Shown: in pieces, positions 5,013-22,561 of the stretch
Position numbering within the stretch: the stretch's first letter is position 1
How the letters are laid out: the number at the start of each line of letters is the position of its first letter
IMG/VR virus record: IMGVR_UViG_3300042445_001030
Location: 1 to 29,543 of that record
DNA length: 29,543 nt
Direction: 5' to 3' (one strand)
From: a virus
The notes under the pieces: generated by a model
Told to the model about the DNA's origin: nothing
Seen by the model: only the letters and a program-made list of their open reading frames with translations
The model's database searches: none
Made by a program: the position numbers and the translations under genes

Positions 5013-5449
5013 TGAAAATTATCAAAAAATTGTTTGGACTAGACAAGCTCGAAGAATCGATAGCCAAAGCAGAAAAAGATCTAATTGATGCCAATCGAAG
5101 GTTAGAAGAAGCTGAGAAAGCTGCTAACATTGCCAAAGATCAAGAAGATTTAGCTAAATTAACTCCAAAAGAAAGAGCCAGCCGCAAGAAAGAACCATGG
5201 GTAGGGGTGCTAGAAACTCATGTAAACCAAGATAACATCAGAAATGGATTCTTTGAGCTTGACTGGAACGACCTTTTTGTGTTAAAATTAAAGCAAGAGG
5301 GATACGGTGAAGAAGGTGATTTGGATGAAGAAATCGTCGATCGTTGGTTTAGAGAACTCTGTGCAAATGTTGTAGTCGACGGAGACTACGGTGGTCCTGT
5401 TAATACAGGTGTTATTGATATAAACAATGTGAAAAGAAACAATAAATGA
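5012..5449 (+). CDS. coiled-coil protein, unknown function
   Basis: A 145-residue protein. Residues 8-55 form a charged, Ala/Glu/Lys-rich heptad region typical of a coiled coil; residues 65-135 look globular and acidic with a VDGDYGGP turn. I start it at ATG 5012, which overlaps the queE stop as TAATG and has GGGG about 7 bases upstream, not at the in-frame ATG at 5000 inside queE. It ends in an ATGA overlap with the exonuclease gene. Function unknown. Confidence 0.7.
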   Translation: MKIIKKLFGLDKLEESIAKAEKDLIDANRRLEEAEKAANIAKDQEDLAKLTPKERASRKKEPWVGVLETHVNQDNIRNGFFELDWNDLFVLKLKQEGYGEEGDLDEEIVDRWFRELCANVVVDGDYGGPVNTGVIDINNVKRNNK

Positions 5450-6432
5450 CCTATATTTTAGTTGATACTGCTAATACATTCTTCCGTGCTAGACACGTTA
5501 TCAACGGTGATGCTGACATTAAGTTGGGCATGGCATTCCACATTACACTAAACTCTATTAGAAAAGCATGGCAACAGTTTAACGGCAGTCATGTTATTTT
5601 CTGCTTAGAAGGTCGTTCGTGGCGTAAGGACTACTATGCTCCGTACAAACGCAATCGTTCAGATGCTCGTGCAGCACACACTGTCAAAGAAGCAGAAGAA
5701 GAAAAAGTCTTTTGGGAAGCATTTGACGAGTTTAAAAACTTTGTAACTGAAAAAACTAATTGTACTGTTATGCAACATCCGCAATTAGAAGCAGACGATC
5801 TTATTGCAGGTTGGATACAGAGCCATCCTGATGATAATCACGTTGTTATCAGCACTGATACAGACTTCGTACAATTAATTGCACCAAATGTGAAACAGTA
5901 CAATGGTGTTATGGAACAGACTATCACGCACGAAGGAATATTCGATGACAAAGGCCGGCCTGTTATTGACAAAAAAACACAAGAAGCAAAAAAAGCCCCG
6001 GATCCGGAATGGCTCCTGTTTGAAAAGTGTATGCGTGGTGATACCAGTGATAATGTCTTCTCGGCGTATCCAGGTGTGCGTACTAAAGGCACAAGCAAAA
6101 AAGTGGGTCTTACTGAGGCGTTCGAAGATCGTGGCACCAAAGGATATGCGTGGAACAATCTCATGCTTCAGAGATGGACTGATCACGAAGGCAAAGAACA
6201 TCGTGTGTTAGAAGATTACGAACGCAATCGCCGATTGATCGATCTTGCTCACCAGCCAGAAGATATTAAAAATATCATTAAAGAAACTATCAACACAGCT
6301 ACATCTGCAAATAAGAATATCAGCCAGGTTGGTATTAGACTTATGAAATTTTGTCATCTGTATGATCTTAAAAAGATTGCAGATCAGGCAGCTAGTTATG
6401 CCGAACCATTAAATGCGAGGTACACACTATGA
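5446..6432 (+). CDS. FEN-type 5'-3' exonuclease (T4 RNase H-like)
   Basis: A 328-residue flap/5'-3' exonuclease that would remove RNA primers and flaps on the lagging strand. The acidic metal-binding set is complete: Asp7 (VDTAN), the Glu115-Asp117-Asp118 group in LEADDLI, Asp138 and Asp140 in STDTDF, and Asp199 and Asp202 in RGDTSDN. The helical arch region around YYAPYKRNR (63-71) is also typical. After GDTSDN comes YPGVRTKGTSKKVG, in the place of the usual H3TH 'PGVGxKTA', with extra residues. It corresponds in role to T4 rnh. It has ATGA overlaps at both ends. Confidence 0.9.
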   Translation: MTYILVDTANTFFRARHVINGDADIKLGMAFHITLNSIRKAWQQFNGSHVIFCLEGRSWRKDYYAPYKRNRSDARAAHTVKEAEEEKVFWEAFDEFKNFVTEKTNCTVMQHPQLEADDLIAGWIQSHPDDNHVVISTDTDFVQLIAPNVKQYNGVMEQTITHEGIFDDKGRPVIDKKTQEAKKAPDPEWLLFEKCMRGDTSDNVFSAYPGVRTKGTSKKVGLTEAFEDRGTKGYAWNNLMLQRWTDHEGKEHRVLEDYERNRRLIDLAHQPEDIKNIIKETINTATSANKNISQVGIRLMKFCHLYDLKKIADQAASYAEPLNARYTL

Positions 6433-6905
6433 CAGACTTACATGCAAAACCCATTATTGAAAACAAATTCTGGATCGTTGAAAAGGACGGTGCCAAGTTC
6501 GCCACTCTAAGAAAGAACGAAGATAATCGTTTTGTGATGAGCAATGAGACTGGAATTAAAATTTATGAAACTAAAGAAAGTCTGACCAAACAGTTTGGTA
6601 AAGATTTCTTTATCGCTAAAATTATTAAAGAAGCTGATGACGCTGAGCCAAACGAAGTACACGGATACATCACTAGCACAACTCCTCACAATGCGATGTT
6701 CGATGTTAAAAGAAAACTTCCACTGTTCACCAAGAGCGGAGATAGTAAGAGTCTTTACTGTGCAGGATACTACGTAATTAAATTTGACAAAGGTTGGGTC
6801 AAATCATTCTGTCCAAAACTTATTACACTCCAGCGATACGAATATCAAGGTCCATTTAAAACAGAACTAGAAATGAAGCAGAGGCTTTCCAATGTCTCAA
6901 AATAA
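6429..6905 (+). CDS. conserved unknown protein (158 aa)
   Basis: A 158-residue soluble protein with mixed strands and helices and no catalytic motif I recognise. The N-terminus (FWIVEKDGAKFATLRK) suggests a beta hairpin, and the middle has a GYYVIKFDKGWVKSFCPKL segment. It starts in an ATGA overlap with the exonuclease gene and is overlapped by 14 bases by the next gene, so it may act with replication functions. That link is by position only. Confidence 0.7.
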   Translation: MTDLHAKPIIENKFWIVEKDGAKFATLRKNEDNRFVMSNETGIKIYETKESLTKQFGKDFFIAKIIKEADDAEPNEVHGYITSTTPHNAMFDVKRKLPLFTKSGDSKSLYCAGYYVIKFDKGWVKSFCPKLITLQRYEYQGPFKTELEMKQRLSNVSK

Positions 6906-7140
6906 TATCACAACATTGCCAAGTGTTGAGAAATTACTTCAACGAGTGTCTGCTGCTGAAAGAAGTCAACAGAAAGACATACGTATAACTATTCAGGAAG
7001 CACGTGAACTAACAGCTGAATTGGCTATCATGACTAGCAAATTAGGTTCTACAGTTAAGGAAATACATCAACTGTTATCCGAAATCAAGGAAAATACCAC
7101 CAAGATTGACGTTAAGTTCGACGGCGGTGGCTTCAATTAG
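6892..7140 (+). CDS. small helical/coiled-coil protein
   Basis: An 82-residue protein that is helical through about residues 8-70, with heptad-like hydrophobic spacing, and ends in a polar Gly-rich tail (FDGGGFN). An acidic or amphipathic tail with an aromatic end is seen in single-strand-binding-type proteins, but it is too short to claim that. It is the last gene before the first late promoter and probably closes the early/middle block. Confidence 0.65.
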   Translation: MSQNNITTLPSVEKLLQRVSAAERSQQKDIRITIQEARELTAELAIMTSKLGSTVKEIHQLLSEIKENTTKIDVKFDGGGFN

Positions 7141-7141
7141 G

Positions 7142-7149
7142 TATAAATA
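7142..7149 (+). promoter_or_regulatory. T4-type late promoter
   Basis: A perfect TATAAATA, the T4 late promoter element recognised by the phage sigma factor gp55. It sits between two genes. The predicted transcription start lies about 6 bases after the element, near 7155, giving a short leader before the ATG at 7180. Confidence 0.8.
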
Positions 7150-7181
7150 TATACGTGGTTAATTAGGAAACACGTATATAT
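7147..7181 (+). promoter_or_regulatory. RNA hairpin enclosing the ribosome binding site and start codon
   Basis: Bases 7147-7157 are perfectly complementary to 7171-7181 (11 bp) around a 13-base loop. The loop holds the AGGA ribosome binding site (7165-7168), and the right arm holds the first two bases of the ATG at 7180. Read-through transcripts from upstream would form the hairpin; a transcript starting near 7155 would lack most of the left arm. This matches the logic known for the T4 lysozyme gene e. Confidence 0.7.
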
Positions 7182-7464
7182 GAGTAGACCAAAACCCAAA
7201 ATAATGCTTGAATACACTAACAAGGAAACGTTCAAAGTCGAACAGATTCTTGATAGCGAAGCCATTTGGGCTGTATTTTATAAAGGCCAACCGTTTAACT
7301 TAAAGAGCGGTAGTTTCGTAACGAGCTACCCGGGACCTAAATATAAAAAAGTAAGTTTTTCAAATCCCGGTCATGCATACAATCTTGCTAAAAAATTAAA
7401 CAGACTTTTTAAAACTGCCGAGTTTGAAGTATATAAACTTACTCAAGGTGAAAAGGTAGGATAA
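7180..7464 (+). CDS. late unknown protein (94 aa)
   Basis: A 94-residue basic protein without a recognised domain. Strand-like segments (KIMLEYTN, AIWAVFYK) come before a short helix (AYNLAKKLNRLF, about 69-80). It is the first gene behind a late promoter and its start codon lies in a hairpin, so it is probably made only late and tightly silenced early. A virion or lysis-stage role would fit the timing; nothing in the sequence tells which. Confidence 0.7.
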   Translation: MSRPKPKIMLEYTNKETFKVEQILDSEAIWAVFYKGQPFNLKSGSFVTSYPGPKYKKVSFSNPGHAYNLAKKLNRLFKTAEFEVYKLTQGEKVG

Positions 7465-7466
7465 TA

Positions 7467-7868
7467 ATGGACCCCAAGGATGCCTACACTCGGGTGTTCT
7501 TACAGGCAGCGAACATCGATGCCGACCAAGATACAATCAAAAAATACAAAAGTGTTTGGTGGTGGAACTTCCGTAATAAAGACACAGGCGGGCTTCGTTT
7601 GACCGAACATGCCTTGCAGTTTATCGAAGAACATGCTAAAATTAAAACTTACAAAATAGATTTTCCTAAAGAGTTTTCATTCACTCCGCAGGTTCTAGTT
7701 TGGTTAGATAACTTTATCGATTCACCATTTTTCATCACTAAAAAACATATCGTGGTATTAAAAGAAAAATCAGCATTTGAACTATATCTATTTTCCGGAG
7801 ATATAAGAAAAATGGGCCATAATAAAGCATTGGCCAAAAGACTTAGCCAAGAATCCATCGACCAATAA
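7467..7868 (+). CDS. late unknown protein (133 aa)
   Basis: A 133-residue protein with a KYKSVWWWNFRNKDTGGLRLT segment split around residues 27-46, followed by alternating strands and a basic C-terminus. I recognise it as a type of protein common in marine T4-like phages, but no function is known to me. The start ATG is 2 bases after the preceding stop with GGTAGG upstream, so it is co-transcribed with the previous gene from the late promoter at 7142. Confidence 0.75.
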   Translation: MDPKDAYTRVFLQAANIDADQDTIKKYKSVWWWNFRNKDTGGLRLTEHALQFIEEHAKIKTYKIDFPKEFSFTPQVLVWLDNFIDSPFFITKKHIVVLKEKSAFELYLFSGDIRKMGHNKALAKRLSQESIDQ

Positions 7869-7876
7869 TACTAACA

Positions 7877-7884
7877 TATAAATA
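7877..7884 (+). promoter_or_regulatory. T4-type late promoter, possibly giving a leaderless mRNA
   Basis: A perfect TATAAATA in a 23-base gap. The expected transcription start, about 6 bases after the element, is near 7890, only about 2 bases before the ATG at 7892. No Shine-Dalgarno sequence is visible in the gap. Confidence 0.7.
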
Positions 7885-7891
7885 TTTCACT

Positions 7892-8164
7892 ATGTTTGAC
7901 TTAAACCCTATTGATGTTCTGAAACAAAGAGAGATGACAATATTGCCGCCTCACTTTGCTAAGACCAAAATCGCCGATCATGACTTTTATGATACTCAGA
8001 TTAGAAATTGGGTTTCTGTTAAATTAAAAGGAAGATTTTGCATTGCAAAAATGCCTTCTATCGACGGTAGTGGGAATTTGAAGTCGACCACGTTTGTGGC
8101 CTTTGAAGATCAAAAAGAGCTAACATACTTTATGCTCGCATGTCCATATTTAAGGAGAAATTAA
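7892..8164 (+). CDS. late unknown protein (90 aa)
   Basis: A 90-residue protein with a strand-rich middle (RNWVSVKLKGRFCIAKM) and a C-terminal FVAFEDQKELTYFMLACPY segment. No known domain recognised. Two starts are possible: the ATG at 7892, which lacks a ribosome binding site and lies just after the late promoter, and an in-frame ATG at 7934 preceded very closely by AAAGAGAG. I keep 7892. The stop overlaps the next start as TAATG. Confidence 0.65.
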   Translation: MFDLNPIDVLKQREMTILPPHFAKTKIADHDFYDTQIRNWVSVKLKGRFCIAKMPSIDGSGNLKSTTFVAFEDQKELTYFMLACPYLRRN

Positions 8165-8382
8165 TGACAGAAGAAGTTCAAAAACAAGAAGCTGTGCAAC
8201 CAGAAGCTGCACCCCAGCAACCGCCAGCTGATCTTAATATCAGTGATCTAGTTGCACTAAAAAGCATCATCGAAGTAGCATCACAAAGAGGGGCGTTTAA
8301 AGCAGCAGAGCTAGAGGCAGTAGGTAAAACTTTTAACAAGTTGAACACATTCCTCGAATCTGTTAGCAAAAAGGAGGCATAA
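8164..8382 (+). CDS. small conserved late protein with disordered N-terminus
   Basis: A 72-residue protein. Residues 1-24 are Gln/Pro/Ala/Glu-rich and probably disordered; residues 25-70 are two predicted helices (SDLVALKSIIEVASQRGAF and AAELEAVGKTFNKL). I recognise the second part as conserved across marine T4-like phages, with no known role. The start at 8164 has a strong AGGAG at 8153-8157; an in-frame ATG at 8140 lies inside the previous gene and is disfavoured. Confidence 0.75.
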   Translation: MTEEVQKQEAVQPEAAPQQPPADLNISDLVALKSIIEVASQRGAFKAAELEAVGKTFNKLNTFLESVSKKEA

Positions 8383-21313: not shown

Positions 21314-22173
21314 ATCAACTCCAATAACTTATCAGCATGACGTACTAGGCTCTGTTTATTCATGACATGGATATCTCTTCCCCGGATCACTGCTGTGCAA
21401 TAATCTTCGGTAAGGTTGTGAGAAATTAAGAATGTTAACTTGCCCGTGGAGTCAACATCATACAATATATCTTTGTCTATGGAAGTGAACACAGAAGGCA
21501 AAGTCAAAGATCGATCACTTTCAAATCCTGTCAATATATGTTTGGCTACAGAAAACGCGATGTCATTCCTATATTGTCTAGTGTCAAATCTAAAAAGATC
21601 TCCGTAATATTGATAGTTGTCCCGTACATATTGCACCATATCGAAAAAACTTTTGGCCTGATCATTTTTAGTAAACATCACTGCCGTGGCCCAGAACATG
21701 TGTACTCCGGTATCAGAAATATACCTATCGTGATAGCCTGTTCTCTCTAGACCCACTATGTCATTCATGGAATCTGATATTAGTACATCATCCATGTCCC
21801 AATATTCGTTCAGCCTATCGGAAAAAACAAGGAAATCTGAGTCTATCAGTAGAGTTTTATCGTAGGGTGTTAGATCTAACACACTGGCTCTATTGTTATT
21901 AACAAAAGGCACGATCTTGCTAATCGATGCACCATCATGCAATCTGCGTTTATTTTCAGATTCGGGTTTTTTAATTTCTATTATGTTTTCAAAAACATCT
22001 ACTGCACGTTGATATATCTTGGATTCTTTCATCCACGACACTGTGGTCTTGTCTGTGATAAGACTAACTGGTAGGTTGAGATATTTTTTAGCCAAGCCGC
22101 CAGCAATCACTGCCATCAAGGCGTAGTCAGTGTCTCTATTGTTATGAGCGAATATTACTACACCGCGCTTCAT
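21310..22173 (-). CDS. GT8-like glycosyltransferase (second)
   Basis: A 287-residue GT-A-like protein. The N-terminus GVVIFAHNN and LPVSLITDK match a nucleotide-sugar-binding fold; the metal motif is IDSDFLVF (Asp111, Asp113) and YRNDIAFSVAKHI (about 204-216) corresponds to the ESFALAAKI segment of the next gene, so the two are distant relatives. It overlaps neighbours by 4 bases at each end. Confidence 0.7.
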   Translation of the reverse strand: MKRGVVIFAHNNRDTDYALMAVIAGGLAKKYLNLPVSLITDKTTVSWMKESKIYQRAVDVFENIIEIKKPESENKRRLHDGASISKIVPFVNNNRASVLDLTPYDKTLLIDSDFLVFSDRLNEYWDMDDVLISDSMNDIVGLERTGYHDRYISDTGVHMFWATAVMFTKNDQAKSFFDMVQYVRDNYQYYGDLFRFDTRQYRNDIAFSVAKHILTGFESDRSLTLPSVFTSIDKDILYDVDSTGKLTFLISHNLTEDYCTAVIRGRDIHVMNKQSLVRHADKLLELI

Positions 22174-22520
22174 AGGTCTACCAGTTTCTCAATACTTCTG
22201 CTTTTTTTGAGTTTCTGATATTGTTCAAAATATTCCAAGGTAGCAGAAAAATATCTATCGAGTATCTGATCTCGAAAAGACTGCACATCTTCGATTAGTA
22301 TCGGAGTCTCATTGATGTCAAGTAGCGGAACACCCGACGTCCGTCCTTGATCGATCAGCATTTGAATAAATGTGATCAACTCTCTGTCGATTTTAAAAAT
22401 GCCGCCATTGATACCAAACGTTAAATTGGCATCAGCTTTTTCTTTTAATGTCTTTCTTTGGATTGAAAATGCTTGGCGATAGTTTGAAAAATCCAGAGCT
22501 TTTTTTAATTGCTCTTCCAT
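22170..22520 (-). CDS. conserved late phage protein, first gene of glycan operon
   Basis: A 116-residue protein conserved in marine T4-like phages, with no known role. It is helical at both ends, with a central strand pair (ANLTFGINGGIFKIDREL) and a C-terminal YFEQYQKLKKSRSIEKL helix. The start ATG has a strong AGGAG 7 bases upstream and lies about 22 bases from the predicted start of a late transcript. Its position beside the fibre genes suggests a tail-related job, but this is only positional. Confidence 0.72.
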   Translation of the reverse strand: MEEQLKKALDFSNYRQAFSIQRKTLKEKADANLTFGINGGIFKIDRELITFIQMLIDQGRTSGVPLLDINETPILIEDVQSFRDQILDRYFSATLEYFEQYQKLKKSRSIEKLVDL

Positions 22521-22539
22521 AAAATTCTCCTGATTAACA

Positions 22540-22561
22540 TAGCACTTTATTTATAGTGCTA
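22540..22561 (-). repeat. inverted repeat around the late promoter
   Basis: Bases 22540-22546 are complementary to 22555-22561 (7 bp, 8-base spacer), so the repeat surrounds the TATAAATA element. No T run follows on the - strand, so it is a poor terminator. It could be a weak attenuator for read-through from the adhesin genes, or chance. Confidence 0.45.
22548..22555 (-). promoter_or_regulatory. T4-type late promoter of the glycan operon
   Basis: A perfect TATAAATA on the - strand, 28 bases before the ATG at 22520 and in one of the very few gaps of this strand. No other late element is seen between here and 9328, so it probably drives all 13 downstream genes. Confidence 0.8.

Follow-up and report, generated by a model that had tools for sequence, protein, structure and literature searches.

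The leader of a gene for a 94-amino-acid (94-aa) protein, carried by the 29,543-base virus record analysed here in its entirety (the window), has at the level of sequence the features of the T4 e-type switch, a known device, and it probably acts as a cis-acting late-only switch, in which read-through RNA would be silenced by a stem that the late promoter bypasses. A preliminary description of this DNA had put forward the logic of T4 gene e for the gene, and that proposal is now supported by a conserved and covarying stem, by the geometry of the predicted late start, and by T4 controls, all of them computed.

The hairpin lies on the + strand between a late promoter and the start of the gene. 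The T4-type late promoter box, TATAAATA, occupies positions 7142..7149, a box being present in relatives as well, and from T4 late promoters a transcription start is predicted 5–6 nt after it, at 7154..7155. The left arm, ATATATACGTG (7147..7157), recognized by folding and covariation, overlaps both the box and the predicted start, as had been proposed, and pairs over 11 bp with zero mismatches with the right arm, CACGTATATAT (7171..7181), which was recognized by folding and takes in the A and T of the start codon. The 13-nt loop between them, GTTAATTAGGAAA (7158..7170), contains the Shine–Dalgarno (SD) sequence AGGA at 7165..7168, and the ATG at 7180–7182 opens the open reading frame (ORF) of the conserved 94-aa protein (7180..7464). 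The coordinates, the 11-bp count, and the start codon within the stem had been given correctly to the base in the preliminary description; its estimate that a late RNA from about 7155 would retain about 3 of the 11 bp agrees with folding, in which an RNA from 7155 is left with GUG/CAC only, that is, 3 bp of the stem. When the 59-nt piece 7142–7200 was compared with 200 dinucleotide shuffles, none folded as well (z −3.6); in a 101-nt context, z is −1.6 and 14/200 shuffles are at least as stable, and in a 141-nt context, z is −1.5 with 15/200. Taken alone, the stem in the window is suggestive and amounts to modest evidence, and it is the relatives that decide.

Tandem genes on the + strand of the window run head to tail into the 94-aa ORF, in the order QueE-like protein, 149-aa protein, T4 rnh-like exonuclease, two small proteins, and 94-aa ORF. 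The gene for the T4 rnh-like 5′–3′ exonuclease (5446..6432, + strand) is recognized by PHROG 107 (E 6e-45) and by Pfam PF02739 above cut-off, the T4 RNaseH_C Pfam match of its product lying below cut-off. An 82-aa ORF (6892..7140, + strand) stops just before the box; in relatives, the C-terminus of its product is a short conserved tail (DGG-x-F, DSG-x-W, and similar), and one BLASTP comparison revealed no similarity to T4 gp33. From the stop of this ORF to the 94-aa ORF, there are 39 bases, which hold the box TATAAATA and nearly the whole 11-bp stem. Given the tandem gene order, and given that no terminator-like site was found on the + strand between 5410 and 7180, we infer that early or middle read-through RNA reaches the 94-aa gene. 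The stop of the gene upstream of the box, which lies just before the box in the window, is inside or past the box in some relatives, and such a position close to or past the box means that terminating ribosomes might open up some of the left arm. With positions 6400–8200 of the window as the query, a search for related DNA in cultured phages gave no match. Within the window, TATAAATA is not enriched (4 seen vs 3.2 expected) and ATAAATA is rarer than expected (5 seen vs 13.4 expected), with four of the five ATAAATA sites followed after 7–30 nt by the ATG of an ORF of at least 60 codons.

Relatives were collected by scanning viral contigs twice with the 94-aa protein as the query, and the best 80 of at least 599 and the best 80 of at least 598 stretches were taken; distant relatives are under-sampled, as each scan contributes only its 80 best matches out of about 600. 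Together, the two scans comprise 157 different loci, some of which are one contig fetched twice, and four cultured jumbo-phage loci, out of 15 matching records, were added. These 161 loci and the window reduce to 123 distinct upstream regions, and the scored set is 122. Among these leaders (best 80 of about 600 per scan plus the cultured phages), 122 of the 123 have an ATAAATA or CTAAATA box, the one without it, L094, having only 63 nt of upstream sequence and being too short to score. The [A/C]TAAATA box precedes the ATG by 19–37 nt in 121 of the 122 boxed leaders; in Salicola phage SCTP-2, the distance is 55 nt. Opening cost was defined as the energy needed to expose positions −15 to +3, and was calculated for an RNA with 60 nt of upstream sequence and for an RNA starting 6 nt after the box. 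Over the 122 leaders, the median is 10.1 kcal/mol in the read-through RNA vs 3.3 kcal/mol in the predicted late RNA. The read-through RNA is harder to open by a margin of at least 3 kcal/mol in 110/122 distinct leaders (111 in a rounded recount), and 12/122 fall below it; by chance, roughly one in five of the other late leaders would reach this margin.

The left arm is phase-locked to the box: in 97/113 leaders, it begins within the last five bases of the box or immediately after them, whereas the loop length varies among relatives. The best contiguous stem measures 9–14 bp in 80/113 distinct leaders, a count that allows G–U pairs and comes without a chance control. The right arm extends to the AUG in 70/113 distinct leaders, and AGG, GGA, or GAG is found in the loop in 85/113, in or at the right arm in 15, and nowhere in 13. 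An additional arm-like element, [AG]CG[TC]AG[AT]TAA, precedes the box in 13/120 leaders (L095, L096, L099, L104, L108, L109, L112, L120, L123, L150, L161, L164, and L165), 20–23 nt away in 12 of them. In L059 (1400–1475), whose leader is identical in L060, L062, L102, and L103, a CTAAATA box is enclosed by a stem (GTGCGTAT/ATACGCAC), the SD being located beyond the main stem, an arrangement unlike simple SD hiding. There are also exceptions among the relatives. No convincing hairpin is present in L047 and L152, and the margin is 0.7 kcal/mol in L047 and L054 and under 1 kcal/mol in L054, L106, and L109; the weak or absent stems in L047, L152, and L054 indicate that the hairpin can be lost. L090 lacks a stem next to the box and has an SD/AUG-hiding stem with the left arm wholly upstream of the box. 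The stems of L118 (ACTGTGCA/TGCACAGT) and L065 (CATACT/AGTATG) consist of letters unrelated to the usual arms. In Agrobacterium phage Atu_ph07, an unrelated stem has the same layout, with 13.5 vs 3.4 kcal/mol, and this is the only one of the four cultured relatives examined with a clear equivalent of the hairpin; in PA5oct, Phosso, and SCTP-2, no conserved stem was found, the margins being 3.7, 2.7, and −1.0 kcal/mol, respectively. The preliminary description had tied its reading to conservation of the hairpin in related phages, and when this was examined, the hairpin proved to be kept, with arms that covary.

The covarying pair is formed by the fourth base after the box, which is A or G, and a partner in the right arm, identified by means of an RCGNA motif. 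In 122 rows, each a distinct combination of leader and coding sequence, the pair is A–T in 56, G–C in 37, G–U in 4, and A–C in 0; the remaining 25 rows include 16 with a different left arm, 7 without a readable right arm, and 2 that are mismatched. On a tree of 118 rows, based on up to 700 nt of downstream sequence, the left and right bases each changed 14 times. This tree provides 9 supported independent contrasts; on average, the right arm changes in step with the left in 7.5 of them, shows no difference in 1.5, and opposes it in 0 (median p 0.008, range 0.008–0.016), and a tree from the 270-nt coding part provides only 3 supported contrasts, too few to test. Replacement of the arm points in the same direction: in 105/121 leaders, opening is costlier with the native left arm than it is on average with swapped ones, and shuffling 13 nt around the left arm reduces the median opening cost from 9.9 to 4.3 kcal/mol, the native value being above all 20 left-arm shuffles in 81/113 leaders. 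The hairpin is beyond chance, and the compensatory changes and the stem rebuilt in relatives are evidence of selection on the base pairing itself.

The box of T4 late promoters is numbered −13 to −6. In the leaders of the 94-aa gene, the median opening cost depends on where the RNA starts: it is 9.5 kcal/mol for the third-last base of the box and falls to 7.7, 5.9, 3.5, and 3.3 kcal/mol for bases 1, 3, 5, and 6 past the box, respectively. A predicted late RNA is thus without the 5′ part of the stem provided that it starts at least 5 nt after the box, and the drop in cost at 5–6 nt places a T4-like start just past the point of stem loss. The same calculation was applied to T4 leaders. Long RNAs of e, 49, segB, I-TevII, and I-TevI require 16.4, 16.5, 17.0, 13.5, and 14.6 kcal/mol, respectively, and their late RNAs 0.3–5.7 kcal/mol, with gene e at 4.7 or 1.9 kcal/mol for its two boxes vs 16.4 for the long RNA. 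The start of the nested product of T4 gene 49, which has no box within 80 nt, also costs 9.7 kcal/mol to open, and therefore a high opening cost alone does not mark the device. A gp55-like protein (E about 1e-6) is encoded by 6/20 relative contigs, a set of possible fragments to which the window does not belong, and the matches to T4 gp55 have 31–37% identity over 73–95 residues.

On the late-only reading, read-through RNA from upstream promoters would hold both arms, its stem would hide the SD and the start codon, and the 94-aa gene would be barely translated from it. Once the phage late sigma factor is active, the late promoter would be used and transcription would begin at about 7154–7155, inside the left arm; the late RNA would retain about 3/11 bp, leaving the ribosome site open, and the 94-aa protein would be made. 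The harm from early production that the preliminary description had implied is not readable from such a device, because deletion of the T4 I-TevI hairpin is reported to cause no endonuclease-mediated loss of viability, the cost arising via td intron splicing (PMC2988022).

The same inverted repeat could act as DNA, as an operator at the late promoter bound by a protein, possibly the 94-aa product, although this is unlikely. Such an operator would account for the conservation of the arm letters, with TATRCGT after the box in 99/121 leaders, and for the additional element before the box in 13/120 leaders, and autorepression of I-TevI at a late promoter is on record (PMC2988022). However, the arm spacing, 5 to 19 nt among stems of at least 8 bp, would hardly be tolerable for a dimer site, the arms change together instead of staying fixed, and their letters are wholly different in L118 and L065. 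It is less probable still that the stem tunes or stabilizes the late mRNA, by 5′ protection or as an autogenous translational operator, with transcription starting upstream of the left arm. Most of the stem would indeed be kept if transcription began no later than the first base past the box (median at least 7.7 kcal/mol), but T4 late promoters are described as having an 8-bp TATA box that precedes the start by about one turn of the helix (PMC2988020), a distance that leaves about 3 bp here, and the left arm of L090, being upstream of the box, cannot be in the late RNA. As for a functionless palindrome, a by-product of AT-rich promoter sequence and shared descent, the marginal standing of the window sequence in longer contexts (z −1.5 to −1.6) is what might be expected from it; yet the covariation with independent double changes, the shuffling and arm-swap controls, and the reappearance of the layout in other genes, with a different sequence, leave it with next to no credibility.

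The 94-aa gene is present in at least 599 stretches of uncultivated phage DNA, and its product, with no PHROG at E 0.1 and no Pfam above cut-off, is annotated as 'hypothetical protein' in all 15 matching cultured records. In an alignment of 38 sequences (the window plus 37 of the best 80 first-scan loci), 45/94 columns are invariant. An AlphaFold2 model has a mean pLDDT of 90.8, and a Foldseek search of the PDB with it gave no match at E 0.001. The best solved fold match, Tic22 (Z 5.3 over 61 residues, rmsd 3.0), is not convincing, and two viral structure matches at E below 0.001 are uncharacterized proteins of uncultured phages. In the T4 gene order, the DsbA and gp33 genes come after rnh; neither product showed similarity to the 94-aa protein when each was compared as a single T4 sequence, the hhalign probabilities being 0.3% for DsbA and 0.2% for gp33. 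A literature search found no title or abstract on the gene or its clade.

The layout recurs in two gene families besides the 94-aa gene. One comprises proteins beginning with MRDL (L228–L305, start at 601) that have a basic, cysteine-containing C-terminus; the margin is at least 3 kcal/mol in 33/36 distinct leaders (80 loci, with 7 cut or partial ones left out), the hairpin overlaps the promoter, and the arms show matched changes (AGTATG/CATACT, AGTATC/GATACT, and AGTATT/AATACT). The other is represented on the − strand of the window by a second hairpin (22540..22561), whose arms (22555–22561 and 22540–22546) stand around a late box at 22548–22555 and are followed by a 116-aa ORF (22170–22520) with the SD AGGAG (22527–22531) outside the stem. 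Margins for this gene are at least 4.4 kcal/mol in 9/9 distinct leaders (one cut locus left out), with stems that differ in make; in L209, L210, and L212, the left arm comes before the box and a longer stem reaches up to the SD region. For late genes at large, 69 late box/ORF pairs with an SD from six long relative contigs were surveyed against shuffled upstream sequence, the SD filter apparently having dropped the 94-aa gene of two contigs, G005 and G006. Margins of at least 3 kcal/mol were observed in 19/69 vs 14.6 expected, of at least 6 in 10 vs 2.3, and of at least 8 in 5 vs 0.5, and with 19 vs 14.6 at the lowest threshold, only the larger margins stand out. This survey replaced a weak first control on other late boxes in the first 162 sequences, which had only 14 pairs, 5 with a margin of at least 3 kcal/mol; two of the 14 were the 94-aa gene with a wrong start and two were the window's own other late genes. 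In L179 (contig G018), a late box is flanked by long perfect arms, CTCCTAGGTGATA/TATCACCTAGGAG, which hide the SD of a gene beginning MALQLRRGT, the N-terminus of which we take to resemble tail fibre proteins.

In addition, late boxes 3–9 nt before starts that lack an SD suggest leaderless late mRNAs, whose 5′ end would coincide with the AUG or lie just ahead of it. In the window, the next late box (7877..7884, + strand) is 7 nt before the SD-less ATG at 7892 of a 90-aa ORF (7892..8164, + strand), whose product begins M-x-x-LNP in 45/45 distinct relatives and, at E 1, is without a match in the collection of cultured phages. In a separate scan of this family, the gap between box and ATG is 6–8 nt in 45/45 distinct leaders, and AGGA, GGAG, GAGG, and AAGG are absent before the ATG in 45/45. 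In the first loci, the gap is 4–9 nt in 38/39 rows, the exception, L016, having the box and no ATG within the next 45 nt; a gap of 4 requires a start 5, not 6, nt after the box. A second family, of 114–125 aa and located beside the MRDL gene (L228–L307), has a gap of 4–7 nt in 45/45 distinct loci, without an SD. In L204, the box also provides the stop codon of the preceding gene.

A similar pattern emerges from 124 ATAAATA boxes in six contigs, where the downstream ORF starts at 3–5 nt in 25 cases, at 6–9 nt in 7, at 10–14 nt in 0, and at 15–35 nt in 56; an SD is present in 1/32 short-gap vs 40/56 long-gap cases. Among 20 permuted motifs used as a short-gap control, the highest counts are 13/727 and, for TAAATAA, 11/182, the latter being in part ATAAATA sites displaced by 1 nt. 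For three MRDL genes on the short-gap list, the start is an in-frame upstream ATG that other members lack (e.g., L229 and L231). Ten uncultivated contigs have 38 matches to the short-gap pattern, 4 of them such MRDL-type in-frame upstream ATGs, vs 8 for the reversed pattern, and the excess is absent (pattern/reversed) from Phosso (0/0), PA5oct (9/6), Atu_ph07 (6/6), SCTP-2 (14/16), and T4 (2/2). It should be noted that in 20/33 short-gap cases, an upstream stop lies no more than 15 nt ahead of the ATG or 10 nt past it, and re-initiation explains those cases equally well; in the 7892 family, the upstream stop lies 18–36 nt before the ATG in 78/80 loci, with none found in the other 2. The existence of leaderless mRNAs in phages is not in itself new, given the remark in a paper on phage AR9 that phage transcripts are often leaderless (PMC5312081), and a literature search found no account of leaderless mRNAs at T4-type late promoters.

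If the SD-less late starts are leaderless, they would represent a second way of tying translation to late transcription. A clade-wide rule of late-only translation, combining start-hiding stems in at least three gene families with SD-less AUGs at or within about 3 nt of the late start, can be put forward tentatively, as a possibility that we hold to be somewhat short of even. If it is true, an SD-less gene would be readable only with its AUG at the 5′ end, and the 94-aa gene and the 7892 gene would be near neighbours using the two versions. For the hairpins, a textbook T4 device, known in a handful of cultured-phage genes, would be extended to uncultivated T4-like phages; the 94-aa protein is flagged as one whose timing appears guarded, and the approach makes it possible to look for late-guarded genes in the genomes of phages that have not been cultured.

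In T4 gene e, the late promoters are described as lying in the 5′ part of a start-hiding stem, such that long early RNAs are inhibited and late RNAs, which are without the 5′ part of the stem, are translated; gene 49, I-TevI, and soc are grouped with e as leaders of this kind (PMC3014915). An e-like account is given for I-TevI elsewhere, with similar arrangements in I-TevII, I-TevIII, segB, and Aeh1 mobE (PMC2988022). The leader of the 94-aa gene is like that of gene e in having a T4-type late promoter immediately upstream together with a predicted SD/AUG-sequestering stem, kept in relatives, and differs in that the product is lysozyme in T4 and the 94-aa protein here, and in that the switch of the latter is known from sequence and computation. 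The layout in T4 49, soc, I-TevI, I-TevII, I-TevIII, and segB and in Aeh1 mobE is of the same kind; however, these genes belong to cultured phages and encode mostly nucleases, whereas the 94-aa gene belongs to uncultivated phages and is without a named relative. The DNA operator of I-TevI is likewise a regulatory site overlapping a late promoter (PMC2988022), but it acts on DNA by protein binding, whereas the conserved property of the 94-aa leader is RNA pairing.
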